Of a DNA stretch of 64,000 bases, positions 3,001-39,238 are shown piece by piece; the first letter of the stretch is position 1; each line of letters starts with the position of its first letter. Source of the DNA: Herpetosiphon aurantiacus DSM 785 (GTDB lineage Bacteria; Chloroflexota; Chloroflexia; Chloroflexales; Herpetosiphonaceae); assembly GCA_000018565.1 (NCBI GenBank), contig CP000875.1:5037199-5101198 (forward strand). Direction: 5' to 3'. The notes under the pieces were generated by a model, which saw only the letters and a list, made by a program, of their open reading frames with translations, made no database searches and was not told the origin of the DNA. Both the position numbers and the translations under genes were made by a program.

Positions 3001-6000
3001 TGTCCTCCATCTGTGGAGCCTGACGCCGCTCGCGGGGATCAAGTCCGGAGCGGCGCGCTTCGCAGCCGCGCAGGACTACTGCTTTACCAGCTTGCTTAAT
3101 CTTGCCCGCGCCTTTGAAGCGCAGGTGATTACCGACAGCATCCACATGCTGGTGGTTTCCAAAGGTATGCAGGCCGTCGATCCGAGCGACATCCCCGATG
3201 CCGACAACGCGACCCTCTTGGGAGCCTGCACCGTGATTGGCCAGGAGAACACCTCGATCATTGTCCGCAGCGTCGACCTGGATGTGGATCTAGATGCTCG
3301 CCACTTGGACGGGTATGCGGCGGGACTGATCGCCGAGGGCCAGAGCGGCAGCCACGATCTGCACGTTGCCTATCGCGACGGTCAACGCTTTGCCGAACGC
3401 TATGTCCCGCTGCGCCTGGAAGCGCTGTCCCAGCCGATCCTGCGGCCGGGCGGGGTGTATCTGATGACGGGCGGTCTGGGCGGGGTCGGGTTAATCCTGG
3501 CGGAGCATCTGGCGCGGACGGCGCAGGCGAAGCTGGTGCTGGTCGGCCGGCAGGGCTTGCCGGAGCGGGCGGCATGGGACGCGTGGCTGCGCGAACACGG
3601 CGCGGATGACGCCACCAGCCAGCGTATCCAGCGGGTGCGGACGATCGAGTCCGCCGGCGGCGTGGTTGAGGTAGTGGCCGCCGACGTGGCCGATCCCGAG
3701 CAGATGCGCCGCGCGGTCGCCATCGCCGAAGCCCGCTTCGGCCCGATCAATGGCGTCTTGCACGCCGCCGGCATTTCGGATGATACGGCCTTCCGACTGA
3801 TCCAGACCCTCGAACAGGCGACCTACGCCGCTCACTTCCAGCCGAAGGTGTACGGGTTGTACGCGTTGGAAGCGGCGTTGGGCGACCGGCCGCTGGACTT
3901 CTGCGTGCTGTGTTCGTCGGTGTCCTCGGTGTTGGGCGGGCTGGGTTTCGCGGGCTACGCGGCGGCCAACTGCTTCATCGATGCATTCACCCAGCGCCAC
4001 AACCGCACGCACGCAGTGCCTTGGGTCAGCGTCAACTGGGACACCTGGCACCTGCGCGCCGGCCAGCACGACGTCACCGGTCTTACGGTTGCCCAGTACG
4101 AGATGAGCCCGGCCGAGGGCGCGGCGGCCTTCGAGCGCGTCGCCGCGGCCCGGGGCCACAGCCAGATTATCAACTCGACCGGCGACCTCGACGCCCGCAT
4201 CCGCCAGTGGGTCCGCCTCGAGTCCATTCGCAACGATGCGGCCGTTGCGCCGGCTCCCGCGAGCAACGGCCGCCCGGAGCTGTCCACAACCTATGTTGCG
4301 CCGATCGGCGAGTATGAGCAACGCGTTTCCGCCATCTGGCAGCATGTGTTGGGCATCGACGAGATCGGACTTCATGACAACTTCTTCGACCTGGGCGGCA
4401 ACTCGCTGATCGCGCTTCAGCTGATCGCCCGGCTGAAGAAGGAGTTCAAGACTCACATTTCAGCGGTGGCGCTCTTCGAGGCGCCGACGGTGAGCACGAT
4501 GGCCCAATACCTGCGCCCCGAAGTCGCACCGGAAGAACATGTCGATCAGGAGCGCCTGCTGATTGAGCACCGCCGCGAGCAAACGCGCCAGACGGTGCAG
4601 GCGGATGGTATCGCGATCATCGGCATGGTCGGGCGTTTTCCCGGTGCCTCCAGCGTGGAGGAGCTCTGGCAAAATCTGCATAACGGTGTCGAGTCGACAA
4701 CCCACTTCACCGACGCAGAGTTGCTGGCGGCCGGCGTCGATCCCATGCAGGTGTACCACCCCGACTACGTGAAGTCGCGGCCGATCCTGCAAGAAGATAT
4801 CACCCTCTTTGATGCGGCGTTCTTTGGCTACACGCCGCGCGAGGCGGAGTTTCTCGACCCGCAGCAGCGCTTGTTCCACGAGTGCGCTTGGGAGGCCCTG
4901 GAGCAGGCCGGCTACGACACTCAGCGCTATCCCGGCCTGGTCGGCGTTTTTGGCGGCACCAACACCAACGCCTACCTCAACCGCATCGCCCGCGACCCAC
5001 GCTCCGACGGCCATATCACTGAGATCATCACCCTTGAGAACGACAAGGACGCGCTGGCGACCAACGTCGCCTACAAGTTGAACCTGCGCGGGCCAAGCTT
5101 CGCGGTGCAGACGTTCTGCTCGACCTCGCTGGTCGCCACCCACTTGGCCTGCCGCAGCCTGCGCCACGGCGAGTGCGATATCGCGTTGGCGGGTGGCGTG
5201 TCGGTCCGTGTCCCGGTCAACACCGGCTATCTGTATGAAGAAGGCGATCAGGTGTCACCGGACGGGCATTGCCGGACGTTCGATGCCAACGCGGGCGGAG
5301 CGACCTTCGGCGACGGGGTGGCGATCGTGGTGCTGAAGCGGCTGGCGGACGCGCTGGCCGACGGCGACACTATCCACGCCGTGATCCGTGGGTCGGCGAT
5401 CAACAACGACGGCGGCCTCAAGGTCGGCTACACCGCACCCAGCGTGGTCGGGCAGGCGGCGGTGGTGCAGGCTGCGCTGGCTGATGCCAATCTGGCCGCC
5501 GATGCCATCTCGTATGTCGAGGCCCACGGCACTGCCACCAAACTCGGCGACCCGATCGAGGTTGCCTCATTGACCAAGGCCTATCGCACGACCACCGACA
5601 AAGTTGGCTTCTGCGCGATCAGTTCGGTCAAACCGAACGTCGGCCACCTCGACCGCGCTTCGGGGGCGACCGGCTTGATCAAGACCGTCATGGCGCTCAA
5701 GCACAACGTGATCCCGGCCACGCTGCACTTCCAGACGCCCAACCCCGAGATCGACTTCGCCAGCAGCCCGTTCTTTGTGCCGACCGCGCTCACGCCGTGG
5801 ACGCGCAATGGCACACCGCGCCGGGCCGGGGTCAACTCGCTGGGTGTGGGTGGAACCAATGCGCACGTCATCGTGGAGGAAGCACCGCAGGTCGGGCCAA
5901 GTGGCCCCGGTCGGGCGGTCGAACTGCTGGTGCTGTCGGCCAAAACGGCGACCGCGCTGGAGGCAGCGACCACGAATCTGGCCGCCTATCTGGAGGAGCA

Positions 6001-9000
6001 GCCGATGGTGAATCTGGCTGATGTGGCTCACACGCTCCAGGTTGGGCGGCGGGTGTTTGAACATCGCCGGGTTGTGGTCGCCCGCGACGTGGCGGACGCG
6101 GTGGGCCTGCTGCGGAGCGGCGATGCGCGGCGGGTGCTGACGCTGGCACAGAAGCCGACCAGTCGGGGTGTGGCCTTTGTGTTCCCGGGCGTGGGCGACC
6201 ACTACATCGGGATGGCGGAGGGATTATACGCGACCGAGGGAGTATTCCGCGCGACGGTTGACCGCTGCTGTGCGCTGCTGACGCCACTGCTCGGATCGCC
6301 CATTCGGAAGGAAATCTACCCCGATGGTGGTGTTCCCGCCCAGACCGGCGTCGACCTGCGTGCTATGCTGCGCCAAGACGCGACGCCGAGGTCGGCGGGG
6401 CGCTTGCACCAGACGGCGTGGGCGCAACCGGCGGTGTTCGTGGTGGAGTATGCGTTGGTGCAGCTGCTGGCGAGCTGGGGCATCCGGCCGCAGGCGTTGC
6501 TCGGCTACAGCGTGGGTGAGTACGTGGCGGCGGCGGTCGCTGGGGTGTTGAGCTTGGAGGATGCCTTGACCCTAGTCGCCAAGCGTGCCCAGTGGATTCA
6601 GGCCCAGCCGGCCGGGTCGATGCTGGCGGTGAGCTTGAGTGCCGAGGCGATCGGTGCGTATGTGGGCGGTGCGGTGGCGCTGGCGGTGGTCAACAGCCCG
6701 ATGACCTGCGTCCTGGCTGGTCCGCAGGCGGCGTTGGAGGCGGTGAAAACCCGCTTGGACGGTGATGAGGTGGCCAGCCGCTGGCTGGAGACGAGCCACG
6801 CCTTCCACTCGCCGATGTTGGCGCCGGTGCAGGCCGAGCTGACGGCGCTGGTGCGCACGCTGCGGCTCCAGGCACCGCGCATCCCGTATATCTCCAACAT
6901 CACCGGTACGTGGATCACCGATGCGGAAGCGACCGACCCGGGCTACTGGGCACGGCACATGGTCGAGACGGTGCAGTTTGCGGACGGCGTTGGCACGCTG
7001 CTGGCCGATGCCCAGCTCGTGGTGCTGGAAGTGGGGCCGGGGCAGGCGCTGGGGTCGTTTATCCGGCAGCACCCGGCCTGCGGGCGCGACCGGTTCGGCC
7101 AGATCGTGGCCACGGTGTGTGGGATGACGGACACGAGCGATGACCTGGAGGTGCTGTTGAGCGCGCTGGGGCGGCTGTGGCTACACGATGTGGTGGTCGA
7201 TTGGGCCAGCTTCCGTGGCAGTGAAGTCCGCCAGCGTATCCCGCTGCCGACCTACCCCTTCGAGCGCCAGCGCTTCTGGATCGAGCTGCCTCCAAACCCG
7301 CGCGGGGATAGTGGGCGAAAGGTGCGCCGGTTTGATGCGGGCGACTGGTATGCCGTGCCCTCGTGGAAGCGCGCGGTCGCCCACGACGAGCTTATCGACG
7401 GTGCGGCCGGCCTGGGCGACCAGGGTAGCTGGCTGGTGCTGGCGGATGGCGAAGGACTGGCCGCTGGGTTGACCGCCTGGCTGGAAGAGCGCGGCCAGAC
7501 CGTGATCACGGTCACGCCCGGCGCAGCCTTTGCCCAGCACAGTGCAACGGCGTATACCGTGCGCGCCGGCAGCCGCGAGGATTTCACGGCCTTGTTGCAG
7601 ACACTGGAGCGTCATGGCCAGATGCCTAGTCGCATCGTCCATGCCTGGCTAGCGACCCCTAAGGTGGGTGCCGCTCAGCTTGACGATGTGGGGCTGGCGG
7701 AGTCCTTGGATCTCGGCTTCTATAGCCTGCTGGCGCTGGCCCAGGCGCTTGGCGAGCAGGATATTGAGTGGTGTGAGATCAATGTCCTCACCTCCGAGAT
7801 GCACGACATCAACGGCCGCGAGGAGCTCAACGTGGCGGCGGCGGCAGTGATTGGGCCGTGCAAGATTATTCCGGTCGAGTATCCGAACCTGACCGCGCGC
7901 TCCATCGATATCCTGTTGCCGGCCAGCCCCGCTGAGCGGGCGACCTTGGTCGCGCAGATCGGCGCTGAGCTGGCTACCCCACCGACCGGCGATCTGGTCG
8001 CCTTCCGCGGCGCCCATCGCTGGGTTCAGATGATGGAGCCGGTTGCGCTGCCGACAGCGCCCGCGTCGCATCCGCGCTTGCGGACGGGCGGGGTGTACCT
8101 GCTGACCGGCGGCTTGGGCGGGATCGCCCTCGGCTTGGCCCGCGACCTGGCGGCGACGCTTCAAGCCAAGCTGGTGCTGGTCAACCGCTCCAGCCTGCCC
8201 GACCGTGCCACCTGGCCGGCGCTGCTCGAACGCGACGGTGCCGAGCAGGGCGTGGGGCGGCGCATTCAGCAGGTGCTGGATCTGGAGGCGCTGGGCGCGG
8301 AGGTGCTGGTCATTCAGGCCGACGTCACCGACGCGGTGGCGATGGCGCGGGCGGTGGCTGAGGCCCAGGCACGCTTCGGGACGATCCACGGTGTGCTCCA
8401 CACGGCCGGCGTGCCCGGCGTGGGCTTGATGCAGCTTAAGGATGCCGCGACGGCAGCGGCTGAGCTGGCGCCCAAGGTTCAGGGCACGCTGGCGCTGACT
8501 CGGGCGTTGGCCGGGGTGCCGCTGGATTTCTTGGTGTTGTTCTCGTCAGTGACGTCAGCGACGGGCGGCGGGCCGGGCCAGGTGGCCTACTGTGCCGCCA
8601 ACGCCTTCCTCGACGCCTACGCCCGCAAGCATGCCACCGACCACGGCCGCACCGTGGCGGTGAGCTGGGGCGAGTGGTTGTGGGACGCCTGGTCCGACGG
8701 CCTGCAAGGTTTTTCAGCCGAAGATCAACTGCGCTTTCGGGCCTACCGCCGCACCTTCGGCATCACCTTTGACGAAGGCGCCGAGGCACTGCGCCGCATC
8801 CTGGCCTGCCGCATCTCGCACCTGTTTGTGACGACCGAAGACGTCGTCGCCATGTTCGAGGATAGCAAGGGCTCGGCGCTGCAGCGCGCCGCCCGCCAGG
8901 AGGACGCGGCCCAGCGCTACCCGCGCCCCGAGGTCAGCACCTCGTTTGTCGAGCCGCAAAGCGAGCTGGAGCAACAGGTCAGCGCGATCTGGAGCGAAGT

Positions 9001-9235: not shown

Positions 9236-9259
9236 TAACGTAATTTTATGGAGGAATCA

Positions 9260-10111
9260 ATGGCTATCAAAAAAGTTGGCGTGATTGGCGCTGGTGTGAT
9301 GGGTATCGGGGTTGGCCAGAGCCTGGCCCAGGGCGGCTACGAGGTAGTCCTGATCGACATCAACGATCAGATTCTGGAGCACGCCGAGCGCGAAATCCGC
9401 AGCAACCTGCGACTCTTCAAAATGCTTAACAAAGGTGTGGAGCTGGATATCGCCGCGACCCTCGGCCGTATCACCTTCGCCACTGACTACGAGCACCTCA
9501 GCGACGCCGACTTCGTGGTTGAGAACGTGGTTGAGAATTGGGAGATCAAGAAGGCCGTCCACCTCAAGCTGGATGCCATCTGCCCTGCCCACACGGTGGT
9601 CGCCGTCAATACCTCGGCGATCTCGATCACCCGCGTCGGCTCGCTGACCAAGCGCCCGTCGCAGATCGTCGGCATGCACTTTATGAACCCGGTACCCATG
9701 AAGCCGACCGTCGAGGTGATCCGCGGCTACCACACCTCCGATGCGACCATCGCCACCGCCAAGGAATTGCTGGCCGGCATGGGCAAGAAAGGTGTCGTCG
9801 TACAGGATATGCCCGGCTTTGTTTCCAACCGGGTCTTGATGCTGACGGTCAACGAGGCGGTCTTCCTGGTGCAGGATCAGGTCGCCAGTGCCGAAGAAGT
9901 CGACACGATCTTCAAAGAATGCTTCGGCCACAAGATGGGTCCGCTGGAAACCGCCGACCTGATCGGCCTGGATACGATCCTTTACTCGATCGAGGTGCTC
10001 TACGAGAGCTACAACGATAGCAAGTACCGTCCCTGCCCGCTGCTCAAGAAAATGGTCGACGCCGGCCTGCACGGCCGCAAAAACGGCAAAGGCTTCTATA
10101 CCTACGAGTAG
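9260..10111 (+). CDS. 3-hydroxyacyl-CoA/ACP dehydrogenase of a hydroxymalonyl-ACP cassette (FkbK/ZmaG-like)
   Basis: A 283-residue protein of the 3-hydroxybutyryl-CoA dehydrogenase family. The N-terminus carries a Rossmann motif (GVIGAGVMG), and the C-terminal half contains MHFMNPVP and a PGFVSNR segment typical of the family. The ATG at 9260 is chosen over the one at 9248 because GGAGG (9250-9254) sits 5 bases upstream and the protein then begins directly at the Rossmann strand. In FK520, ansamitocin and zwittermicin pathways, such enzymes act with an acyl-ACP dehydrogenase on glyceryl-ACP to give hydroxymalonyl-ACP. The next three genes complete that set, which is why the biosynthetic role is preferred over butyrate-type metabolism. 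It lies 24 bases after the PKS gene and is probably co-transcribed with it. Confidence 0.9.
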   Translation: MAIKKVGVIGAGVMGIGVGQSLAQGGYEVVLIDINDQILEHAEREIRSNLRLFKMLNKGVELDIAATLGRITFATDYEHLSDADFVVENVVENWEIKKAVHLKLDAICPAHTVVAVNTSAISITRVGSLTKRPSQIVGMHFMNPVPMKPTVEVIRGYHTSDATIATAKELLAGMGKKGVVVQDMPGFVSNRVLMLTVNEAVFLVQDQVASAEEVDTIFKECFGHKMGPLETADLIGLDTILYSIEVLYESYNDSKYRPCPLLKKMVDAGLHGRKNGKGFYTYE

Positions 10112-10201
10112 CGCTTCACCGCATATTCCGTCCGGGCGACGGTTCGTCGTGACCGGAGATTGATATGGCCATTTTTTAATGTATTTCAAGGAGACAATTC
10201 C

Positions 10202-10459
10202 ATGACCACCGATAGCCTGACCGTCGACGACATCAAAGCCCGCACCCGCGCCTTCATCGGCAAATTCTTCAAGAATATCGAGCTGCAGGATGATGAGGAT
10301 ATTTTCGCCCTCGGCTTTGTCAATTCGCTGTTTGCCATGCAGCTGGTGATGTTTATCGAAAAAGAGTTCGGCATCGCGGTCGAGGACCAGGATCTGAACA
10401 TCGATAACTTCCGCACGATTAACGCGATGGCTGATCTGGTCAAGGGAAAAGTGCTGTAG
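10202..10459 (+). CDS. Free-standing acyl carrier protein of the hydroxymalonyl cassette (FkbJ/ZmaD-like)
   Basis: An 85-residue stand-alone carrier protein. The start at 10202 is set by AAGGAG at 10188-10193, 8 bases upstream; a longer in-frame ATG at 10160 lacks such a site. The phosphopantetheine serine lies in GFVNSLFAMQL, with NSL where DSL is usual. The protein is acidic and helical (FIEKEFGIAVEDQ, then a helix to KGKVL), as for ACPs. In FkbJ-type systems this ACP receives a glyceryl group from the FkbH-like enzyme and is oxidised while loaded, then offers hydroxymalonyl or methoxymalonyl to a PKS AT. The flanking genes fit that role. It could in principle serve another acyl chain, but the neighbourhood makes that unlikely. 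Confidence 0.9.
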   Translation: MTTDSLTVDDIKARTRAFIGKFFKNIELQDDEDIFALGFVNSLFAMQLVMFIEKEFGIAVEDQDLNIDNFRTINAMADLVKGKVL

Positions 10460-10471
10460 CGCTATATGCAT

Positions 10472-10520
10472 AGGCGTCCGGCGGAGATACGGCCATCCGC
10501 GTATCCGCCGCCGGACGCCT
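10472..10520 (+). other. Intergenic hairpin between ACP and acyl dehydrogenase genes
   Basis: Left arm 10472-10491 and right arm 10500-10520 are reverse complements with one bulged or mismatched position (core GGCGTCCGGCGG / CCGCCGGACGCC) and a loop of about 8 bases. No T-tract follows, so it is not a classical intrinsic terminator. It may stabilise or process the polycistronic mRNA or reduce downstream translation. Confidence 0.6.
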
Positions 10521-10548
10521 GTGCGCCTGGCGCCTGGAGGAATAGTGA

Positions 10549-11679
10549 ATGCGAATCGAGCTTACTGAACAGCAAGCCAGCGCGAAGGCGGCGTTTCGTG
10601 CCTTCGTCGATCATGAAATCGTGCCATACGCCGACCAATTCGATCGCGAGGAGCGCGTCCCGGCGGCCGTTATCCAAAAGCTGGCCCGCGAGGGCTACTT
10701 GGGCCAGGTCGTTCCCGAAGAGCAAGGCGGCACCGGCAGCGATATGGTCACCTTTGGTATCCTCAACGAGGAGTTGGGGCGCGGCTGCTCATCGATCCGG
10801 AGCCTGCTGACGGTGCATAGCATGGCGGCGTTCGCCGTGTTGAAGTGGGGCAGCGCAGACCACAAAAGCCGCTTTCTGTCCCGGCTGGTCAGCGGTGAGA
10901 TCATCGGCGCGTTTGCCTTGAGTGAGCCGAACGTCGGCAGCGACGCCAAAAGCGTCGAAACTTCCGCCCGTTTGGTCGGCGACCGCTACGTGCTCAACGG
11001 GCGCAAGCGCTGGATGACCTTCGGCCAGATCGCCGATGTGTTCCTGCTGTTCGCCCAGGTCGAGGGCAAGGTGACGGCCTTCCTGGTCGAAAGGAACAGC
11101 CCCGGTTTCTCGACCGAGCCAATCACAGGCATCCTGGGCACCCGCGGCTCCATGCTTGCCGAACTGCGCTTGGACGATTGCGAGATCCCTAAGGAAAATC
11201 GCCTCGGCGGGCTGGGCTTCGGCCTAGCGGCGATCGGCACGTCGGCCCTGGACATCGGCCGCTACAGCGTCGCTTGGGGCAGCGTTGGCATCGCCCAGGC
11301 ATGCCTGGAAGCCTGCGTGGAGTATACCAGCACCCGGCGGCAGTTCGGCGTGCCGATCAAAGATCACGATCTGGTGCGCCAGATGATGACCAATATGATC
11401 ACGAACACCAAGGCGGCCCGCATGCTGTGCTATCAGGCCGGCTATCTCAAGGATAGCGGCGACTCGCGCACGGTGATGGAAACATGGATCGCCAAATACT
11501 TCGCCTCAACCGCAGCCATGAAGATCGCTGCGGACGCCGTCCAGCTCCACGGCGCCAACGGCTGCAGCGAGGAGTATCCGGTGCAGCGTTACTTCCGCGA
11601 CGCCAAGATCATGGAAATCATCGAGGCCAGCACCCAGCTCCAACAGATGAACATCGCCCAGTACGCCTACGAGTACTAA
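10549..11679 (+). CDS. Acyl-ACP dehydrogenase of the hydroxymalonyl cassette (FkbI/ZmaE-like)
   Basis: A 376-residue flavin-dependent acyl-CoA dehydrogenase family protein, about the normal family length. GGAGG at 10536-10540 lies 8 bases before the ATG. Visible family motifs are ALSEPNVGSD (flavin/substrate region), the arginine-rich TRRQFGVPI helix, and a C-terminal QRYFRDAKIMEIIEAST segment that carries the glutamate at the catalytic-base position (IIEAS replacing the more usual IYEGT). In FkbI-type pathways it oxidises the glyceryl-ACP made by the FkbH partner, with the hydroxyacyl dehydrogenase completing the oxidation. Gene order (dehydrogenase, ACP, acyl dehydrogenase, HAD protein) supports a single cassette. 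FAD binding and the ACP substrate are inferred from the family. Confidence 0.92.
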   Translation: MRIELTEQQASAKAAFRAFVDHEIVPYADQFDREERVPAAVIQKLAREGYLGQVVPEEQGGTGSDMVTFGILNEELGRGCSSIRSLLTVHSMAAFAVLKWGSADHKSRFLSRLVSGEIIGAFALSEPNVGSDAKSVETSARLVGDRYVLNGRKRWMTFGQIADVFLLFAQVEGKVTAFLVERNSPGFSTEPITGILGTRGSMLAELRLDDCEIPKENRLGGLGFGLAAIGTSALDIGRYSVAWGSVGIAQACLEACVEYTSTRRQFGVPIKDHDLVRQMMTNMITNTKAARMLCYQAGYLKDSGDSRTVMETWIAKYFASTAAMKIAADAVQLHGANGCSEEYPVQRYFRDAKIMEIIEASTQLQQMNIAQYAYEY

Positions 11680-11709
11680 GGCATTTACATAACGAAAGGA
11701 ACCTTGCCA

Positions 11710-12780
11710 ATGGCCGTGCAGCAGACCGCCGAGCTGATCAAAGAAGAGAAAAAAAACAAATCGGTCAAGTGTGTCGTCTGGGATCTCGACAACACGGTGT
11801 GGAAGGGCATCCTGCTCGAAGACGAGCATGTCACGCCCTTCCCCAACGTCGTCGCGGTGATCAAAGAGCTTGACAGCCGCGGCATCCTCAACTCGATCTC
11901 AAGCCGCAACGACCATGACCTAGCCGTGGCCAAGCTCGAGGAGCTGGGCCTGCTTGAGTATTTCCTGTACCCTCAGATCAACTGGAACTCCAAGGCCTCC
12001 TCGATCAAGGAGATTGCCAAGCTGATTAACATCGGCCTCGATACCTTCGCCTTCGTTGACGACCAGCCCTTCGAGCGCGAAGAAGTCACCTTCGAAATCC
12101 CCGACATTCTGTGCATCGACGCGCTCGACGGCGAGAAAATCCTCGACATGCCGGAGATGATGCCGCGCTTTATCACCGAGGACTCCCGGCTGCGCCGCCA
12201 GATGTACCAGAGTGATATCTCGCGCAACGGGGCCGAGCAAGAGTTTCAAGGCTCCAACGAAGAGTTCCTGGCTACGCTGAAGATGGTCTTCACGCTGGCC
12301 CCGGCCCAGGAGGATGACCTGCAACGGGCCGAAGAGCTGACCCTGCGCACCAACCAGCTCAACACCACCGGCTACACCTACTCTTACGACGAACTCAACG
12401 CGTTCCGCCACTCGGGCCGCCACAAGCTCTACATCGCCTCGCTGGACGATAAGTACGGCACCTACGGCAAAATCGGCCTGACTCTGGTCGAGTGCGGCGA
12501 GGAGATTTGGACAATCAAGCTGCTGCTGATGTCCTGCCGGGTCATGTCGCGGGGCGTGGGCACGATTATGATCAACCACGTTATGAACGAGTGCAAGCGG
12601 GCCGGGCGCCGCCTCCAAGCCGAGTTCGTTTCCAACAACCGCAACCGCATGATGTATATCACCTATAAGTTCGGCGGCTTCAACGAGGTCAACCGGATCG
12701 ATGATCTGGTGATTTTCGAGAACGATCTGTCCAATATCCAACCGTTCCCGGAGTACGTCAAGGTCAACATTCTGGATTAG
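11710..12780 (+). CDS. FkbH-like HAD-family glyceryl-ACP synthase
   Basis: A 356-residue protein of the FkbH family. The N-terminal HAD motif VVWDLDNTVW has the DxDxT pattern, followed by SSRNDHD and AFVDDQPFERE, both characteristic of FkbH proteins. The C-terminal part contains the family block beginning LRTNQLNTTGY and a GNAT-like LYIASLDDKYGTYGKIGL segment. Family members take 1,3-bisphosphoglycerate, dephosphorylate it and load a D-glyceryl group on the partner ACP, the first step toward hydroxymalonyl-ACP or methoxymalonyl-ACP. The ATG at 11710 is used, with AAGGA at 11696-11700; a TTG two codons earlier is possible. No FkbG-type O-methyltransferase is present in the cassette, so the unmethylated hydroxymalonyl unit is the simpler prediction. 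Confidence 0.95.
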   Translation: MAVQQTAELIKEEKKNKSVKCVVWDLDNTVWKGILLEDEHVTPFPNVVAVIKELDSRGILNSISSRNDHDLAVAKLEELGLLEYFLYPQINWNSKASSIKEIAKLINIGLDTFAFVDDQPFEREEVTFEIPDILCIDALDGEKILDMPEMMPRFITEDSRLRRQMYQSDISRNGAEQEFQGSNEEFLATLKMVFTLAPAQEDDLQRAEELTLRTNQLNTTGYTYSYDELNAFRHSGRHKLYIASLDDKYGTYGKIGLTLVECGEEIWTIKLLLMSCRVMSRGVGTIMINHVMNECKRAGRRLQAEFVSNNRNRMMYITYKFGGFNEVNRIDDLVIFENDLSNIQPFPEYVKVNILD

Positions 12781-12895: not shown

Positions 12896-15800
12896 ATGTA
12901 CACAAAAGAAGAACTCTTGAAGCGGCGCGCCCAGCTTTCGGCCAATCAGCGCACGATGCTGGACAAGCAACTCCGTGGGGAAGCGATGCTCCAGGCCGAT
13001 CCAGGCTACGCCGCGATCGGCAAACGGCCGGCCGATGCGCCGACGCCGCTGTCTTTTTCCCAGGAGCGCCTCTGGTTTTTGCAGCAGCTTGACCCCGCCA
13101 ACGCCGCGTTCAATGGCCTGCGGCCCATGATGATCGCCGGTCCGCTGGACATCGATCTGATCAACCGTGTCGCCAGGGAGATGTACCGGCGCCACGAGAT
13201 CCTGCGCACCAGCTTCCGCTTGATCGATGGTGCTCCATGCCAGATCGTGGACCAGGATCTGCCCCGCACCTACGCCGTGCCGGTCATCGATCTGGGCCAC
13301 CTGCCGCCCGGCGACGCCGAGGCCGAGGCACGCCGGCTGATGGCCGAGGAGGCGCGCACGCCGTTTGACATGGGCCAGGCACCGATGATGCGTCTCACTC
13401 TGATCAGCCTGGACGCCGCCGAGCATGCGCTGCTGCTGAGCCTTCACCATATCGCCTATGATGAATGGTCTAATCAGGTGCTGGTCGATGAGTTCTCCGT
13501 GTTGTATCGGGCCTTCGCCCAGGGCCAACCCTCGCCCTTGCCCGAGCTGCCGATCCAGTACGGCGATTACGCCTACTGGCAGCGCGAGTGGTTGCAGGGA
13601 TCGGTGCTGGAAGCCCAGCTCGCCTACTGGGCCGAGCAGCTCGGCGGCGCGCTGCCGACCCTGGATCTGCCGACCGACCATCCCCGGCCTGCGGTCCAGA
13701 ACTTCCGCCTCCGTACCGAGCAGACCCTTCTGCCCGCCGAGCTGGCCGCCGCCCTGCGGGCGATGAGCCAGAAGGAAGGCGTGACCCTGTTTATGGCCCT
13801 GCTAAGTGCCTTCAAAACCCTGCTTTTTTACTATACAAATCAACCTGAGAGCATTGTCGGCACCTTTATCGCCGGGCGGAGCCGGCCGGAACTTGAGCGA
13901 CTGATCGGCTTTTTTGTTAATTCGCTGCCGCTGCGCAGCGACCTTACCGGCGATCCCACCTTCTCCGAGGTGCTCAAGCAGGTGCGCGCGGTGACCCTGG
14001 GCGCCTACAACCACCAGGATGTGCCTATCGAGAAGCTGATCGAGACCTTCACGCCCAAGCGTGACCTCAGCCGAACGGCTATCTACCAGGCGATGTTTGT
14101 CTTGCAGAACGTTCCCAAGCCCGGTGATGCCGCCGAGCCGTCGGCCCTAGTGATCCGCGAGTGGCAGGATGCCGACGCTTCGGCCGGCGCCGACCTCCAA
14201 TGCGACATTACCCTGATGGTCTACGAGTTGCCGGATGGCGGCCTGCGCTGCCAGTTCGAGTACGACTCGTCACTGTTCGAGGCGGCGACGATCCAACGCA
14301 TGCTCGCTCAATTCGAGACTCTGCTCGCGGCGGTCTCCAGCAACCCCGGCCAGCGCCTCTCGCGTTTGTCCTTGCTGACCGACCAAGAGCGCCAGCAGGT
14401 GCTCTATGACTGGAATGCCACTGCGGTGCCGTTCGCCGTGGACAGCTGCATCCATACGCTGTTCGAGTCCCAGGCGGCCAGAGCACCCCAGGCCATCGCC
14501 CTAGTGCATGGCAAGGAGCGTCTGACCTACGGCGAGCTTAACCGGCGGGCCAACCAGCTGTCCCACTACCTGCGCACGAGCGGAGTGGGCTCCGGGGGTT
14601 TTGTCGGGCTGGCCCTGGAGCGATCGGTGGAAATGGTGGTCGCGGTGTTGGGGGTGCTCAAGGCCGGCGCCGCCTATGTCCCACTCGACCCGACCTATCC
14701 GGCGGCGCGCCTCCAGTTTATGCTCGCGGACGCCGACGTCGGCTTCGTGCTGACCACGGGGCGCCTGCGTGATCGTCTGGCCGGCACGGACCGCACGCTC
14801 CTGGAGTGGGAAGCGCTCGGAAACCTGGACGCGTATCCGCCCGACGATCCGCCGGCTCGCGCAACTGCCGCAAGCCCGGCCTATGTGATCTACACCTCGG
14901 GATCAACTGGCCAGCCCAAAGGAGTGGTCGTGCCCCACGGCGCGCTCGTCCAGACCTACCACACCTGGGAGTCAGCCTACGGCTTGGATGGCGCCGTGCG
15001 CTGTCATTTGCAGATGGCAGCGTTCTCCTTCGATGTCTGCGCCGGCGATCTTATCCGCGCGCTCGGCTCCGGGGGCACTCTCGTGATCTGCCCGCGCGAC
15101 ACGCTGCTCGCCCCCGCCGACCTGCACGCGCTGATCGTCGCCGAGGGCGTGGACTGCGCCGAATTCGTGCCGGCGGTGTTGCGCGAGCTCGTCGCCTACC
15201 TGGAAGGCTCCGGCGGCGACCTGGGCTCTATGCGCCTGCTGATCGCCGGTTCGGATACCTGGTACGGCGAAGAGTATGCCCGGGTCGCCCGCCTCTGCGG
15301 CCCTGACACCCGCCTGGTCAATTCCTACGGCGTCACCGAGGCCGTGATCGACAGCACCTACTTCGAGGCCGGCGCGGCTGCCGAACTGCCCGCCAGACGC
15401 CAGGTGCCGATCGGCCGGCCATTCGCGGCGACCCGGGCGTATGTGCTCAATCGGCTCGGTCAGCCGCAGCCGATCGGCGTGCCCGGCGAACTCTATCTCG
15501 GCGGCTCGCGGCTGGCGCTGGGCTACTGGCGGCGCCCCGGATTAACCGCCGAGCGTTTTGTTCCCGATCCCTTCGCCGGGGAACCAGGCGCACGGATGTA
15601 CCGCACCGGCGATGCCGCCCGCTTCCGCGCCGACGGCACGATCGAGTTTCTCGGTCGGATCGACCAGCAGGTCAAGTTGCACGGTGTCCGCATCGAACTG
15701 GGCGAGATCGAGGCCATCCTGCTCCAGCAGCCCGGCGTCATCCAGGCCGCCGCCGCCATCCGCGAAAATCAACTCGGCCACCCCATCCTGGTAGCCTACC

Positions 15801-16276
15801 TTGTGACCGACGCGCTAGGCGATGAAGCGGCCTTGCGGGCGGCTCTGCGCGAACGGCTGCCCGAGCATATGGTCCCTGCGGCGACTATCATCCTCCCGTC
15901 CCTGCCGCTAACTCCCAACGGCAAGATCGACCGCCAAGCCCTGCCAGAGCCTGACCTTGGCAGATCGGAGATGAGCGCCGCCTACGAGGCGCCTGGGAGC
16001 CTGATCGAGGAAACGCTGGCCGAGATCTGGGGCGAAGTCCTCAAGCGCGAACAGGTCGGCATTCGCGATAACTTCTTCGAGCTTGGCGGCCACTCGTTGC
16101 TGATCACCCAGGTGATCTACCGGGCCAATGAGGCGTTTGAGCTTAATCTACCCCTACGCAGCCTTTTTGAGGAGCCGACGATCGCGGATTTCGCCCTGAG
16201 GGTCGAGGAAGCGCTCCTCGACAAACTTGAGCAACTCGACGATGAGGAAGCCCAGCAGCTGATCGAGGGGTTGTAG
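12896..16276 (+). CDS. Non-ribosomal peptide synthetase, single module C-A-PCP (ornithine-like pocket)
   Basis: A 1,126-residue single-module NRPS, preceded by GAAGGA 5 bases before the ATG. An N-terminal helix (RRAQLSANQ) precedes the C domain, whose active motif is HHIAYDEW at 184-190, with Glu in place of the usual Gly. The A domain has YTSGSTGQPKG near 664. Reading pocket positions by alignment to GrsA gives D-V-G-E-L-A-S-I-D, close to the ornithine code DVGEIGSID. Acidic E278 and D331 fit a basic side chain; I infer ornithine or a relative. The PCP serine is Ser1067. There is no epimerase or TE. The C domain probably condenses the polyketide from the upstream PKS onto this residue. The tail ending DDEEAQQLIEGL looks like a docking segment. 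The next NRPS begins with an A domain, so transfer of this chain is not explained by simple colinearity. Confidence 0.95.
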   Translation: MYTKEELLKRRAQLSANQRTMLDKQLRGEAMLQADPGYAAIGKRPADAPTPLSFSQERLWFLQQLDPANAAFNGLRPMMIAGPLDIDLINRVAREMYRRHEILRTSFRLIDGAPCQIVDQDLPRTYAVPVIDLGHLPPGDAEAEARRLMAEEARTPFDMGQAPMMRLTLISLDAAEHALLLSLHHIAYDEWSNQVLVDEFSVLYRAFAQGQPSPLPELPIQYGDYAYWQREWLQGSVLEAQLAYWAEQLGGALPTLDLPTDHPRPAVQNFRLRTEQTLLPAELAAALRAMSQKEGVTLFMALLSAFKTLLFYYTNQPESIVGTFIAGRSRPELERLIGFFVNSLPLRSDLTGDPTFSEVLKQVRAVTLGAYNHQDVPIEKLIETFTPKRDLSRTAIYQAMFVLQNVPKPGDAAEPSALVIREWQDADASAGADLQCDITLMVYELPDGGLRCQFEYDSSLFEAATIQRMLAQFETLLAAVSSNPGQRLSRLSLLTDQERQQVLYDWNATAVPFAVDSCIHTLFESQAARAPQAIALVHGKERLTYGELNRRANQLSHYLRTSGVGSGGFVGLALERSVEMVVAVLGVLKAGAAYVPLDPTYPAARLQFMLADADVGFVLTTGRLRDRLAGTDRTLLEWEALGNLDAYPPDDPPARATAASPAYVIYTSGSTGQPKGVVVPHGALVQTYHTWESAYGLDGAVRCHLQMAAFSFDVCAGDLIRALGSGGTLVICPRDTLLAPADLHALIVAEGVDCAEFVPAVLRELVAYLEGSGGDLGSMRLLIAGSDTWYGEEYARVARLCGPDTRLVNSYGVTEAVIDSTYFEAGAAAELPARRQVPIGRPFAATRAYVLNRLGQPQPIGVPGELYLGGSRLALGYWRRPGLTAERFVPDPFAGEPGARMYRTGDAARFRADGTIEFLGRIDQQVKLHGVRIELGEIEAILLQQPGVIQAAAAIRENQLGHPILVAYLVTDALGDEAALRAALRERLPEHMVPAATIILPSLPLTPNGKIDRQALPEPDLGRSEMSAAYEAPGSLIEETLAEIWGEVLKREQVGIRDNFFELGGHSLLITQVIYRANEAFELNLPLRSLFEEPTIADFALRVEEALLDKLEQLDDEEAQQLIEGL

Positions 16277-16328
16277 CAGCAATCGGGTGTCACTAGGAGC
16301 CAGTTAGTTCTCTCAGTAGGAGTGTTAA

Positions 16329-19300
16329 ATGTTGGGACTCAATTCTTCCTTGCCATTGCCCGAAGGGCAACCGGACCAGCCAATTGACCTCACGGCAATG
16401 GCAGCGTTGGACGCCCAACAGGCGTGGAACGCGACTTACAGCGACTATCCTGCTGATATCTGCATCCATGAGTTGGTGGAGATCCAGGCCGCGCAGACAC
16501 CCGATACACTTGCCCTCGCCGACCCGCTGGCTCAGGTCACCTACTGGCAGCTAAGCAAGCGTAGCAACCAGCTCGCCCATTATCTGCTGGCCCAAGGCGT
16601 TACCCCTGACACACCGGTTGCGGTGTGCATACCGCGCTCGACGGATCTGGTGGTGGCACTGCTGGGCATTCTGAAGGCCGGCGGGGCGTATCTGCCGCTT
16701 GACCCGGCCTATCCGGCCGAGCGCTTGACCTTTATGCTGGAGGACTCTCAGACGCCGCTCGTGCTCACGCGCGCTGGATTGCTCCGGCCCGAGGACGGTC
16801 TGCCGAAAACCGTCAAGCGGATCGCGCTTGATGATATGGCGGGTCTACTGGCCAATCAGCCGACCAGCGCGCCGTCCAGCCAGGTCGGCCCGGCCAACCT
16901 GGCCTATGTGATCTATACGTCCGGCTCAACCGGCCGTCCCAAAGGCGTGGCCATCGAGCATCGCAGTGCGATCAACCTGATCACCTGGCACCAGCGGGAA
17001 TTCGCCGTCGGCGCCGGCGACCGGGCCACCCAGGTCGCCAGCCCGGCCTTCGATGCGGCCGTCTGGGAGATTTGGCCCTATCTTACGACCGGGGCCAGTC
17101 TGCATATTCCGGCCGAGGAGCTGCGGTTGCTCCCGATGGAACTCAAGGATTGGATGGTCAGCCAGGCGATCACTATGTCGTTTCTGCCCACACCGATCGC
17201 CGAGCGCATCATTGCCCTGCCCTGGGACGGACCATGCTCGCTGCGAGTGCTGCTGACCGGCGGCGACCGTCTCCAGCGGCATCCCGACCACGAGTTGCCC
17301 TTTGTGCTGGTTAACAACTATGGCCCGACCGAGAATGCGGTTGTGAGCACCTCCGGACTGGTCGAGCTGGGCGCGGACCACGGCCAGCCCCCCTCGATCG
17401 GCCGGTCGATCGCCAACACCGAGGCCTATATCCTTGACTCGGCCATGCAACCGGTGGCGGTCGGCGCGCCCGGCGAGTTGTACGTCGGCGGCGTCGGGCT
17501 GGCGCGCTACTATCTCAACCGGCCCGACCTTACCGCCGAGCGCTTTGTTCCGCACCCGTTCAGCCGCCGCCCTGGCAGCCGGCTCTACCGCACCGGTGAT
17601 CGCTGTCAGTACCGAGCTGACGGCTCGATCGAGTTTTTGGGCCGCATCGACTTTCAGGTGAAAGTGCGCGGTTTCCGCATCGAGCTTGGCGAGATCGAGG
17701 TCTGCCTGGTCGGGCATCCAGCGGTCAAGGAAGCCGTCGCGGCGATCCAGGAGATGCCCAGCGGCGCCAATCGGCTGGTGGCGTTTGTCGCTCAACGCCC
17801 CGGCTCGGCGGTCGATAAAGCCGTTCTCAAGGAGTACTTGGGTCAGCACTTGCCAGAGTATATGGTTCCGACGGCGATCACAACCATCGACTCGTTCCCG
17901 CTCACCCCAAATGGCAAGATCGACCGCCGGGCGCTCCTGCTCCAGGCCGTCGTGCCAGCGGCCGGCGACCGAACCGCCCCGGCCACGCCAGTCGAGGCGC
18001 AGGTCGCCGCGATCTGGGCCGAGGTATTCAGCATGCCGGAGATTGGTATCCACAGCAACTTTTTCGACTTGGGCGGGCACTCGCTGCTGGCCACCCAGAT
18101 TGTTTCACGTGTCAACCAGACCTTCGGGGCGGCGCTGCCGATGCGCCAGCTCTTCGATACGCCAACCATCGCCGGCTTGGCGGCGGTGATCGGCGCTGCT
18201 GGCGGCCAGCCGGCGGTCTTTGGGTCGATCACCGCCCAGGATTACCCCACCGGGGCGGTGCTGCCGCTCTCGTTCGCCCAGGAGCGCCTCTGGTTTCTCA
18301 ACCAGCTTGATCCGGCGAGCGTGGCGTATACGATCCCGCTGGCCTGGCGTATCTCCGGTGAGGTCGATGAAGCGGCGCTCAGGCGAGCGCTCAACGATCT
18401 GGCCATGCGCCACGCGCCGTTGCGTAGCACCTTTCCCACCGTCGATGGGAGGCCGGTCGCCCGCCTCAGCGAGCAGACCCCTATCCCGTTCGAGGCCATC
18501 GACTTGGGCGGGCTGGATGGCGCGGCCAGGGTGGGCGAGGCCGAGCGTTATCTGCTGGCTGAGGCCGGCCGCCCCTTCGACCTCGCCGAAGGGCCGCTGC
18601 TGCGCGGAGTGCTGATTCGTCTGGATTCGGCCGATCACCTGTTTGCGCTCATCATTCACCATATCATCTTTGACGGCTGGTCGGTGGACATTTTTACCCG
18701 CGAGCTGGTGGCCCTGTATACGGCGGCGCTGGCTGGCGCGGATGCCGGGTTGCCGGCGTTGCCGATCCAGTATGCCGATTACGCCCGCTGGCAGCGGCGC
18801 TGGCTCCAGGGCGAGGCGCTGGAGGCGCAGGTCAACTACTGGAAGCGCCACCTGGACGATGCGCCGGCCGCGATCGACCTGCCAACCGATCGCCCGCGTC
18901 CGCCCGTCCAGACGTTCAACGGTGCCCTAGAACGCTTTGTCATCCCCGCCGATTTGACTGCGCGCCTGCGCACGCTGGCCATCCGCGAAAACGCCACCAT
19001 GTTTATGGCATCGCTGGCAGTCTTTAATATCCTGCTGGCCCGTTACAGCGGCCAGCGCGATCTGGTTGTCGGCACGCCGATCGCCGGGCGTCACCAGCTG
19101 GAGACTGAGCCGTTGATCGGCATGTTCGTCAATACCCTAGCGTTGCGCACCGTGATCCGTGGCAATCCAAGCTTTTTGGATGTGCTTGCGCAGGTGCGCG
19201 AAACAACCCTGGGGGCTTACAGCCACCAGGACCTGCCATTTGAGAAGTTGGTCGAGGTGCTCCACCCCGTCCGCGACCTCAGCTACACCCCGATTTTCCA

Positions 19301-36383: not shown

Positions 36384-36399
36384 GCGGACATGCACCACC

Positions 36400-36438
36400 G
36401 TTCGGCTCCCGCGCCTAAGGATGGCGTGAGAGCCGAAC
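36400..36438 (+). other. Intergenic hairpin after the giant NRPS gene
   Basis: GTTCGGCTC (36400-36408) pairs with GAGCCGAAC (36430-36438), with extra pairing inside (CGCGCC/GGCGTG) and a loop of about 7 bases. No T-tract follows. It lies between the NRPS stop and the type II thioesterase start, resembling the other hairpins between genes of this cluster. Confidence 0.55.
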
Positions 36439-36506
36439 TATCCTGGCACACTACGGAATCTCTCTTGTATAGCGAGGAATCCTCGCGAAGGAATCAAAAG
36501 CACCCT

Positions 36507-37271
36507 ATGACAACTATCGACCAAACCACCACCAAATGGCTGACCTTTCCCCGACCCAATCCTCAGGCCAAAATACGCCTGTTTTGCTTCTCCTACGCCG
36601 GCGGCGGAGCGTCGACCTTCCGCCCATGGATGCAACACTTGGCGCCAAGCATTGAGCTGTGCGCCGTTCAGCTGCCCGGTCGCGAGAACCGGCTTCGCGA
36701 GGCCCCGCTGACCCGCGTTGATCCGATCGTCGATACCTTGAAACAGATGCTGCCGGCGTATTTTGATAAACCCTTCGCTTTGTTCGGCCATAGTCTGGGG
36801 GCCATCCTGGCCTTCGAACTGGCGCGCGCCCTGCGCAACCATCCCGAGGCCCGGCTGGCCCATGTGTTTGTGTCGGCCCGCATCGCTCCGCAGGCGATCG
36901 ATCCGGAGCCGCCGATCTACCAGTTGCCAGAAGCCCAGTTCCTGGCCAAACTGCGCCAGCTCAACGGCACCCCGACGATGGTGTTCGAGAACGAGGAACT
37001 GCTGGAGATGCTCATGCCGATCCTGCGGGCCGATTTTGCCCTCAACGAAACCTACGCCTACCGGCCGGAGCCGCCGCTTGATGTGCCACTGACGGTGTTT
37101 GGCGGCACCGAGGATCCCAAGGTCAGCGAGGCCGAGCTGGGGGAATGGTCGGCCCAGGCGGGCGGGCGCTTCGCGCTCAAGATGTTCCCCGGCGACCATT
37201 TTTTTGTCAGCAGCGCCCAGCAGGCGATTGTTTCGCTAATCAACGGCGAGCTTCAGACAGTCCATGGCTAG
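36507..37271 (+). CDS. Type II thioesterase (editing thioesterase of the NRPS/PKS)
   Basis: A 254-residue alpha/beta hydrolase of the GrsT/SrfAD family. Ser96 lies in GHSLGA, the Asp is probably in FGGTEDPKV, and the His is in FPGDHFFV. The N-terminus has RLFCFSYAGGGAS, the oxyanion strand typical of the family. The ATG at 36507 is preferred: the upstream in-frame extension from 36390 covers the intergenic hairpin and has no family resemblance, and AAGGA occurs at 36488-36492, though 14 bases away, which is long. These enzymes remove wrong or stalled acyl groups from carrier proteins. In this cluster it may also clear the PCP next to the degenerate A domain. Confidence 0.94.
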   Translation: MTTIDQTTTKWLTFPRPNPQAKIRLFCFSYAGGGASTFRPWMQHLAPSIELCAVQLPGRENRLREAPLTRVDPIVDTLKQMLPAYFDKPFALFGHSLGAILAFELARALRNHPEARLAHVFVSARIAPQAIDPEPPIYQLPEAQFLAKLRQLNGTPTMVFENEELLEMLMPILRADFALNETYAYRPEPPLDVPLTVFGGTEDPKVSEAELGEWSAQAGGRFALKMFPGDHFFVSSAQQAIVSLINGELQTVHG

Positions 37272-37315
37272 CGCATGCTGGCCCCGTTTTGGCATAACAC
37301 CTGGAAGGAAGAACG

Positions 37316-38275
37316 ATGACGATCTCCATATCGGTCAAAGACTTGCGTAAATCGTATGGCAAAGACAGCGCCGTTTTGAAGGGGCTGTCGCTAGACCTCT
37401 ACCAGGATGAGATCCTGGCATTGCTCGGCCCGAACGGCTCGGGCAAAACGACCCTGATCAAAATCCTCGCCACCCTGCTGACCAAGGACTCGGGCAAGGT
37501 GCATATCCTCGGCCAAGACCTGGACGACGACGAAAACGAAATCCGCCATCTCTTCGGCTACGTCGGCCAGGATACCGAGCGCTCGGCCTACTCGCGCCTG
37601 ACCGTAGTCGAGAACCTGCAATTCTTCGGCGCCCTTCGCGGGCTTGACAAGCGACAGGTCAACGCCCAGATCGAGAAACTGGTCGAATACTTCGATTTTA
37701 AGTCCAACCTGAAAAAGTACTTTGGCTACTTGTCCGGCGGCCAAAAGCAAACTGTGGTGATTATGCGGGCGCTCCTGCACGATCCGGCCGTGATTTACCT
37801 CGACGAGCCGACCAAAGGCCTCGACCCGCTGATCGCCAAGAATATCCGCAGCTTTCTCAAGAAATATGTCAAGGAAGAACACAAAACCTTGCTGCTGACT
37901 TCGCACATTTTGTCCGAAGTCGACGAGCTATCGAGCCGGGTCGCGCTCATCCACGACGGCGTGATCGCGTCGGTCGGCACAGCGCAGGAGCTCAAGCAGG
38001 GGGTTGGCGTCGACGGCTTCATCGAATTGCAAAAACACTCGATCCCGCTGGGTGTCGTCGATAAAATCCTCCGCCTGCCGCCAGTTCTCAACAGCGACGA
38101 TCAGGATAGCGAATGGGTGTCGTTTGGCATCAACAATATGGTCGATGCGATGGAAGGGATCATCCATATCTTGCGCGAGGAACAGATCCAGAGCCAGTTC
38201 CGCTACCGCAACGTCTCGCTCGAAGACGCCTTTGTGTATCGGATGGGCTTGCTGTCCGACGGGTTTGAAGCTTAA
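37316..38275 (+). CDS. ABC transporter ATP-binding protein (DrrA-like export)
   Basis: A 319-residue ABC ATPase. Walker A GPNGSGKTT is near residue 39, the signature LSGGQKQ near 141, and Walker B VIYLDEPT near 159, followed by the D-loop GLDP and a switch His in LLTSHILSE. The C-terminal extension of about 100 residues is typical of DrrA/CcmA-type exporters. AAGGAAG lies just before the ATG. The permease gene begins 12 bases after its stop, so the two form an exporter. Given the position inside the cluster, export of, or self-protection from, the peptide product is the likely role. Confidence 0.95.
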   Translation: MTISISVKDLRKSYGKDSAVLKGLSLDLYQDEILALLGPNGSGKTTLIKILATLLTKDSGKVHILGQDLDDDENEIRHLFGYVGQDTERSAYSRLTVVENLQFFGALRGLDKRQVNAQIEKLVEYFDFKSNLKKYFGYLSGGQKQTVVIMRALLHDPAVIYLDEPTKGLDPLIAKNIRSFLKKYVKEEHKTLLLTSHILSEVDELSSRVALIHDGVIASVGTAQELKQGVGVDGFIELQKHSIPLGVVDKILRLPPVLNSDDQDSEWVSFGINNMVDAMEGIIHILREEQIQSQFRYRNVSLEDAFVYRMGLLSDGFEA

Positions 38276-38287
38276 ACAGGGGGAAGT

Positions 38288-39157
38288 ATGATCTCGGAAA
38301 CTCAAGTCACGCGTGATACTCACTATGTGAAATCCAGCAAATCGAAACCAATATCGTCGTGGAAGGTCTTCGTCGCCACCACGGTCAAGGATCTGCTCAT
38401 CCAGTTTCGCTATCTGCCCAACCTCGTGGGCCGGCTTTTCGAACTGACGATTCGCATCGGCTTCTTCTATTTGCTCGCCAGCATCACGACCTACACCGTC
38501 GCCGGCTCGGTGCTAACCGGCCGCAGCCTGATCGTTTTTATGTTCGGCGGGTTGCTGCTGTTCGTCTACAGCAATACCTCTTTCACGGCGCCCATGAACG
38601 CCGTCAGCAACGACTTGCACAACGGCACCCTGGAATACCTGTACAGCAATCCGTCGTCGCGCTATGCCTATTTCCTGGGCAACGTGCTGTCCAGCGCGAT
38701 CGTGAACCAGATTGTGTTTCTGCCACTGTACATCGTCCTGTTTTTCATCGCCGAGGCGACCGCCTTCAACATGCTTATGGTGTTGCTCGTCTGTCTGGCG
38801 GTGATGGGCGTGCTGATCTCGATCGGCATCATGATCGCCATGCTGGCGCTGATCTGGCGTCAGGTTGGGGCGTTTGTGCAAATCCTGGCCATCCTGTTTG
38901 AATTCGTGTCGGGAACCTACTTCCCACTTTCCGCCTATCCGCTGCCGCTCCAGTATGTGGCCTACGCGCTGCCCTATACCTGGGGCTATGACCTTATCCG
39001 CTACTACAGCCTGCAAAACAAGTGGCAGACGATCCTACCTCCGTGGATTGAGTGGTGCATCCTGGGCGCGTACGCCGTGGTTTTCATGGTGATCTCGCGA
39101 ATCCTGCTGGTCAAGGCCGAGCGGCGTTCCAAGAAGCTTGGCTTACATTTCATCTAG
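38288..39157 (+). CDS. ABC-2 type transporter permease
   Basis: A 289-residue integral membrane protein with about six hydrophobic stretches (for example IGFFYLLASITTYTV, SLIVFMFGGLLLFVY, IVFLPLYIVLFFIA and a run of valines and leucines near residue 160). Between them is the conserved NDLHNGTLEYLYSNP loop characteristic of ABC-2/DrrB permeases. It follows the ATPase gene by 12 bases with GGGGGAAG as ribosome site, so the two proteins are expected to be made together and form one exporter in the cytoplasmic membrane. Its substrate is inferred from position only. Confidence 0.93.
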   Translation: MISETQVTRDTHYVKSSKSKPISSWKVFVATTVKDLLIQFRYLPNLVGRLFELTIRIGFFYLLASITTYTVAGSVLTGRSLIVFMFGGLLLFVYSNTSFTAPMNAVSNDLHNGTLEYLYSNPSSRYAYFLGNVLSSAIVNQIVFLPLYIVLFFIAEATAFNMLMVLLVCLAVMGVLISIGIMIAMLALIWRQVGAFVQILAILFEFVSGTYFPLSAYPLPLQYVAYALPYTWGYDLIRYYSLQNKWQTILPPWIEWCILGAYAVVFMVISRILLVKAERRSKKLGLHFI

Positions 39158-39166
39158 GCGCTGGTT

Positions 39167-39202
39167 CCGGGACGAGGCGTTATTCGCGGCGCCTCGTCCC
39201 GG
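39167..39202 (+). terminator. Perfect 13-bp hairpin after the exporter operon
   Basis: CCGGGACGAGGCG (39167-39179) and CGCCTCGTCCCGG (39190-39202) are exact reverse complements with a 10-base loop, 9 bases after the permease stop. No run of T follows, so it may act as a weak or Rho-assisted terminator, an RNA stability element, or both. DAHP synthase lies just beyond. Confidence 0.6.
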
Positions 39203-39238
39203 CCGGATGTTTGACTAGTCAATCGAAGGAGCGCACCA

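Follow-up and report, generated by a model that had tools for sequence, protein, structure and literature searches.

A predicted hydroxymalonyl-ACP cassette beside fourteen GYS-type acyltransferase modules in Herpetosiphon aurantiacus: a proposed route to a long polyol

The cassette and the acyltransferases beside it

The window considered here is a stretch of 64,000 nucleotides from Herpetosiphon aurantiacus (chromosome 5037199-5101198; genome 6,785,430 bases, chromosome 6,346,587 bases), and its central element is a four-gene cassette at 9248-12780, which is predicted to make a carrier-bound polyketide extender unit and lies between polyketide synthase (PKS) and nonribosomal peptide synthetase (NRPS) genes. 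The genes are all on the + strand, as are the others given below unless stated, and follow each other in the order PKS, FkbK, FkbJ, FkbI, FkbH, NRPS with gaps of 12, 90, 89, 24 and 115 nucleotides. The original prediction of adjacent FkbK-, FkbJ-, FkbI- and FkbH-like genes agrees with the Pfam and NCBIfam matches. The FkbK-like 3-hydroxyacyl-CoA dehydrogenase (9248-10111; PF02737, 194.3 bits; PF00725, 118.1 bits) is predicted to oxidize glyceryl-ACP, and is 60-75% identical to FkbK in most of the other cassette loci. The FkbJ-like stand-alone acyl carrier protein (ACP; 10202-10459; PF00550, 34.7 bits), the predicted carrier of the unit, likely starts at the ATG at 10202, the listed start being a TTG at 10160, and retains S42 of the GFVNSL motif, a residue conserved in the family. 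The FkbI-like acyl-CoA dehydrogenase (10549-11679; PF00441, PF02771, PF02770), 61-68% identical to FkbI of many cyanobacterial and Chloroflexota cassettes, is predicted to carry out the second oxidation, giving hydroxymalonyl-ACP. The FkbH-like protein (11704-12780; TIGR01686, 276.5 bits against a cut-off of 146.65), whose gene has a TTG as listed start and an in-frame ATG at 11710, is predicted to load a glyceryl unit from 1,3-bisphosphoglycerate onto FkbJ; it retains D27, D29, T31 and C278, which are conserved across the family.

Family-conserved residues are likewise mostly kept in the cassette as a whole, with few changes, such as G360 to A in FkbI; the Glu beside this position is presumably the catalytic one. 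As a query, the FkbH protein found a single location in the whole genome. Of its 211 relatives elsewhere, the loci of the best 80 were fetched with 10 kb flanks, and in 64 of these 80 all four cassette genes lay within the fetched stretch.

The FkbG-H-I-J-K cassettes for methoxymalonyl-ACP in the FK506/FK520 and bafilomycin systems share the FkbH, FkbI, FkbJ and FkbK homologues and include an O-methyltransferase; none was found in the Herpetosiphon cluster. There is no O-methyltransferase gene among or beside the cassette genes. No methyltransferase Pfam family was detected in the nine PKS proteins of the cluster and the large NRPS, scanned as two halves (E 1e-5), in the NRPS at 12896-16276 (threshold 0.001), or in the cassette and the genes at 36390-40114. 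These scans bear out the earlier claim that FkbG is missing; its homologue was also looked for upstream, in the PKS proteins of the cluster, and was not found there. The idea of an O-methyltransferase domain hidden inside the modules was set aside, as they show no such Pfam family. The closest methyltransferase observed, of a generic kind, lies at 42992-43774 on the - strand, past transposase remnants and in DNA of about 51% guanine plus cytosine (GC), and a genome-wide search, made for the PF01596 family, located two O-methyltransferases, at 1.17 and 5.88 Mb. Hydroxymalonyl, as originally predicted, is the best reading of the cassette product. Both the cassette and this reading have already been published for the cluster, since Table 6 of the Herpetosiphon aurantiacus 114-95T genome paper (2011) enters, under 'PKS/NRPS 5', genes that produce hydroxymalonyl-acyl carrier protein (PMC3368417, from its available text).

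The genome has 24 acyltransferase (AT) matches, 16 of them in this cluster, which begins with two fully reducing modules (GHSMG, VASH) and continues with an array of 14 modules of ketosynthase (KS), AT, ketoreductase (KR) and ACP domains. The last PKS protein, which by Pfam and motifs contains array modules 13 and 14, starts 46 nucleotides before the window and ends at 9235. The AT of module 13 (1559-2416; PF00698) has GYSLG at 1880, HAFH at 2174 and an FPGVGDH loop, and that of module 14 (6176-7039; PF00698) has GYSVG at 6503, HAFH at 6797 and a GVG loop. The original prediction had taken both of these ATs as malonyl-type on the strength of HAFH, and had placed the acceptor in an atypical or upstream AT. 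HAFH is indeed present in both, but this inference about the acceptor is not supported: their active-site motif is GYSxG and not GHSxG; the visible ATs are themselves of the kind found beside such cassettes, with 12 more upstream, and are predicted by their motifs to take hydroxymalonyl from FkbJ.

All 14 array ATs combine GYS[L/V]G, in place of GHSxG, with HAFH. In all 14 a V also replaces the Q of the GxG loop, and the first residue of the RXR motif is a non-polar A in 13 and S in one. The GYS pattern occurs at these 14 sites only in the whole genome, the other ten ATs being of the GHS or GQS type; those of modules 1 and 2 group with YASH-type ATs in our trees. The idea of one unusual upstream module as the acceptor was discarded, since no array module deviates in motif.

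The same combination recurs in the 56 GYS ATs of the other cassette loci: 54 have L, V or I in the loop (the remaining two loops were not found), and 55 are non-polar at the first RXR position. Of the 23 GHS-HAFH ATs compared with them, 22 have Q in the loop and none is non-polar at that position. HAFH accompanies both GHSxG and GYSxG ATs in these loci, and was rejected as a proof of malonyl use because it also occurs with GYS in cassette-linked ATs. We tentatively suggest that GYSxG, a GxG loop lacking Gln and a non-polar first RXR residue might together form a signature that separates such ATs from the malonyl ATs sharing HAFH, a proposal that we hold at this strength jointly with the loading of all 14 modules. 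In the zwittermicin system, the hydroxymalonyl-ACP-specific ZmaA-AT has GYSFG, the aminomalonyl-ACP-specific ZmaF has GYSLG and the malonyl-CoA-specific ZmaK-AT has GHSIG (available text of PMC4207774).

Distribution and kinship of the GYS acyltransferases

The association of the GYS pattern with the cassette was surveyed in three groups of genomes. The centre genomes of two of these surveys, G001 and G006, were picked for carrying a cassette and are counted. The cyanobacterial survey covered 148 genomes from the order to which G001 belongs, with FkbI called at E 1e-100. FkbI was present in 8 of the 148 genomes, GYS in 11 and the GHS pattern in 136. All 8 genomes with FkbI had GYS, as against 3 of the 140 without it, and each of the 9 GYS sites in these 8 genomes was less than 7 kb from FkbI. 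One genome, G051, carries a second FkbI, with no GYS site on that contig. In Streptomyces, 13 of 392 genomes had GYS; FkbI was found in 10 of these 13 and in 3 of the 67 GYS-negative genomes tested, and in all 10 genomes with both, FkbI and GYS were on one contig, within 10 kb. Among 400 Chloroflexota genomes, H. aurantiacus itself (G000) included, GYS was seen in 8; FkbI at at least 58% identity was detected in 6, of which 5 had GYS, and the other three GYS genomes were G796 (FkbH at 72%), the second Herpetosiphon genome G819 (neither FkbI nor FkbH) and G768.

H. aurantiacus has the most GYS sites per genome (14), followed by the Chloroflexota genome G845 with 6. In G845 (C2; L126, L127, L131) four of the six GYS sites show array-like spacing, some 210 kb away from its FkbI, and one further AT is ZmaA-like (GYSFG, GNG, IAAH).

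Two trees place the array ATs within this assemblage. For the first, 149 rows were made and 141 used, near-copies, L099 (the same place as L134), L122 and L123 being omitted; in it the GYS-HAFH ATs, including the 14 of the array, formed one group of 77 (Shimodaira-Hasegawa-like approximate likelihood ratio test, SH-aLRT, 99). A more careful tree was built from 107 of the 141 rows after removal of the GxG, GYS and HAFH columns; it leaves out 11 groups whose rows were long or remote, and of the cyanobacterial GYS rows it keeps a sample of 12. It recovered a GYS clade of 54 rows (support 100/99) that contains all 14 array ATs, and these in turn form a single clade (100/99), so that the motif was inherited and not gained 14 times. 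The array modules are 44-88% identical in pairwise comparisons, which likewise indicates that the array arose by duplication. The nearest group to the array ATs consists of six ATs of the GYS-HAFH type from butyrolactol-type and related clusters (92/89).

This kinship is matched by gene arrangement. For butyrolactol A, a Streptomyces product, isotope labelling traced C1-C8 to hydroxymalonyl and also revealed acetate units and a single methylmalonyl unit. The available text of the same paper (PMC5355916), which tables Streptomyces cattleya proteins as relatives, reports no O-methyltransferase in the vicinity of the cluster. On the S. cattleyicolor plasmid pSCAT the ATs are ordered as three GHSVG, GHSQG, a decayed GHGVG, GYSVG and GYSLG, followed by FkbK, FkbJ, FkbI and FkbH; from the table of relatives we infer that this is a butyrolactol-type cluster, and its AT order fits the labelled sequence of malonyl, methylmalonyl and hydroxymalonyl. 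In Herpetosiphon, as in butyrolactol A and its pSCAT relative, the four cassette genes come directly after the last PKS gene, with no O-methyltransferase reported nearby. The two systems differ in the starter, in the lack of an NRPS part in the table of relatives, and in extent: labelling established four hydroxymalonyl units for butyrolactol, with eight oxygenated carbons in a row, whereas the prediction here reaches 14 units and 28 carbons at most. Gene arrangement and AT kinship thus agree between the Herpetosiphon array and butyrolactol-type polyol PKSs, the AT substrates of the array being predicted only. In the decayed pSCAT module (L134, about 33 kb, - strand; 61.8 kb in the S. cattleyicolor sequence) the AT is shortened, and its GHGVG lacks the catalytic Ser; the module may need loading by a neighbour.

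The zwittermicin proteins ZmaN, ZmaD, ZmaG and ZmaE comprise the same four enzyme types for hydroxymalonyl-ACP, and ZmaA-AT also has Tyr for His and a changed GxG loop (GNG). Zwittermicin, however, contains one hydroxymalonyl unit, and ZmaA-AT differs in having GAAH and a hydrophobic MCM and in branching elsewhere in the AT tree. The plasmid locus L095 of Gloeocapsopsis dulcis shares the order PKS, FkbK, FkbJ, FkbI, FkbH, NRPS, with no methyltransferase listed between, but has one GYS AT among three GHS ATs.

Proposed pathway and competing explanations

The array modules appear intact. The KR of module 13 (3452-4051; PF08659) and that of module 14 (8087-8683, ends approximate, from PF08659 in two stretches and motif position) keep the catalytic K, S, Y and N, and 11 catalytic positions, those of the KR included, are kept in all 14 modules, the positions having been chosen from general knowledge of the families. 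Domain spacing and Pfam content reveal no dehydratase (DH), enoylreductase (ER) or methyltransferase in the array. On these data we propose that FkbH, FkbJ, FkbK and FkbI would build (2-)hydroxymalonyl on FkbJ from a glycolytic three-carbon unit, which would not be capped by an O-methyltransferase while on the carrier. The 14 GYS-type ATs, two in the window and 12 upstream, would then move it from FkbJ to their own modules, where each KS would condense and each KR reduce, with no DH or ER step, before the chain passes to the NRPS. This would add up to seven residues, having seven adenylation (A) domains, and a thioesterase would release the product; the starter may be 4-hydroxybenzoate. If all 14 modules act, 28 contiguous carbinol carbons would result: one alpha carbon for each of the 14 units, 13 array carbonyls after reduction, and one more carbonyl, from the unit that precedes the array. 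The count follows 2n for n units, and the same rule gives 8 for the four units of butyrolactol.

That the cassette feeds all 14 array modules, to yield up to 28 contiguous carbinol carbons, is in our judgement the probable reading of the sequence. Its basis is gene content, motifs, phylogeny, the linkage of GYS to the cassette and intact catalytic residues, and from these we infer AT substrates, activity, stereochemistry and product. What looks new here is that all fourteen repeat modules, and not one special module, bear the marks of hydroxymalonyl. Rather more tentatively, and just short of an even chance, the product might combine a lipid-like stub started by p-hydroxybenzoyl, a fully hydroxylated chain of 28 carbons and a peptide of seven residues, with one carrier serving 14 modules, and, taken jointly with this structure and if all 14 modules load the unit, might be by far the longest run of hydroxymalonyl extension among the clusters compared.

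Several observations weigh against the loading of all fourteen modules. Park et al. proposed, in their MXW rule, hydrophobic residues at both ends of RXR (available text of PMC4207774); this is not fully matched by the array ATs, whose third RXR position is R in 14 of 14, and we therefore do not file them under that rule. ZmaA-AT, the one AT that has been assayed biochemically, falls outside the GYS clade on a branch apart, with a GHS pair nearby, and shares this branch with the GYSFG AT of G845, so the Tyr may have arisen more than once. GYS without FkbI occurs in 3 of 140 cyanobacteria, 3 of 13 Streptomyces and G819; of the cyanobacterial cases, G034 reads a stop codon, and in G019 and G089 GYSMG goes together with GAFH and a loop still reading GQG, so that the full signature is missing there. 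Conversely, 11 of the 51 relatives' loci with four cassette genes and a detected AT have no GYS AT in the 10 kb flanks, and GYS is hence not required. The genomes surveyed are also related, and their counts not independent. Finally, the butyrolactol link rests on a table of relatives, and pSCAT has two intact GYS ATs against four labelled units.

In four of the 11 cassette loci without GYS (L030, L066, L092, L093) the sole detected AT is a stand-alone one of the GHSLG type with APFH, which in three of them starts less than 130 nucleotides from the FkbH match; another AT family may handle the unit in these loci.

The main competitor is that hydroxymalonyl serves only one array module or a few while the other GYS ATs load malonyl-CoA, the shared motif then reflecting either relaxed specificity or the descent of the modules, by copying, from a single hydroxymalonyl ancestor. 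The descent of the 14 array ATs by duplication as one clade is in keeping with this, as are their retention of HAFH and of R at the third RXR position, as in malonyl ATs, and the presence of mostly one or two GYS ATs in other cassette loci. None of the 14, however, has gone back to GHS, to Q in the loop or to a charge at the first RXR position; the malonyl-type modules of mixed loci, such as L095, retain GHS, and the array has no GHS-HAFH module. We consider this explanation unlikely, if still deserving of attention. Far less probable is that the unit is methoxymalonyl, methylated on its carrier by an O-methyltransferase encoded elsewhere in the genome. The two PF01596 genes would be candidates for such a role, but both are more than 0.8 Mb away, the proteins of the cluster that were scanned contain no methyltransferase domain, and the cluster is a foreign-looking island. 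GYS ATs do occur in Streptomyces genes annotated as FkbM-family methyltransferases, in all four annotated loci, and GYS alone therefore cannot tell hydroxymalonyl from methoxymalonyl. We give as little credence to the view that cassette and array do not cooperate today, the cluster being a silent or decayed island acquired horizontally. Transposase, TniQ or TnsD-like genes do stand at the island flanks (as also in the available text of PMC3368417), the literature searched names no product, and the G819 assembly includes the beginning of the cluster but neither FkbI nor FkbH; against such decay are the long open frames and the 11 catalytic residues kept throughout the array.

Were the loading of all fourteen modules by hydroxymalonyl correct, a cultured strain would encode a sugar-like polyol longer than any in the hydroxymalonyl literature that we found, one set by the choice of extender and not by later hydroxylation. 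Polyols of this kind would then be mis-predicted, since the HAFH rule reads such modules as malonyl. The 14 near-copy modules also make up a ready set of natural variants for engineering AT and KR domains.

The surrounding island

Downstream of the cassette, an NRPS module with condensation, A and peptidyl carrier domains (12896-16276; Pfam), which would receive the polyketide chain, is followed by an NRPS that comprises six A domains and ends in a thioesterase (16329-36383; Pfam, run on two halves) and a stand-alone thioesterase (36390-37271; PF00975, 166.5 bits). Next come an ATP-binding cassette (ABC) transporter (37316-39157; PF00005, PF01061), with its ATPase at 37316-38275 and membrane protein at 38288-39157, and a 3-deoxy-D-arabino-heptulosonate 7-phosphate (DAHP) synthase (39239-40114; TIGR01361, 390.9 bits against a cut-off of 267.75), which probably feeds a chorismate-derived starter. 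Upstream of the window, at chromosome 4964758-4967498, are a chorismate-lyase-like gene (PF01947, 65.9 bits) and a gene for a 712-residue AMP-ligase with a carrier domain, which we take to resemble FadD22. These two genes and the DAHP synthase, occurring together in the island, suggest that the starter may be 4-hydroxybenzoyl.

The genome paper lists 'PKS/NRPS 5' as a cluster of 112.6 kb with 16 PKS and 7 NRPS modules and product type macrolide, and terms it foreign on account of its GC of about 66% and the transposon fragments at both ends (available text of PMC3368417). In the sequence, the high-GC island is framed by transposase remnants downstream (window 41734-42632) and by TnsD and TniQ-like genes upstream (chromosome 4960083-4963592). 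Our literature search, with subscription journals mostly outside it, found no product and no substrate assignment for these ATs, the available part of the review PMC4902038 included. The initial portion of the cluster also occurs in G819 (C9:1-40000; L122-L123), where 36.7 kb match at 96.5% nucleotide identity and the contig stops within the array; searches of this assembly for FkbI and FkbH found neither. In the Streptomyces loci L097, L098, L100 and L101 (about 16300-18800), a GYS AT is also present in a gene, some 2.5 kb long, that bears the annotation FkbM methyltransferase, and AT and methyltransferase seem to be fused there.

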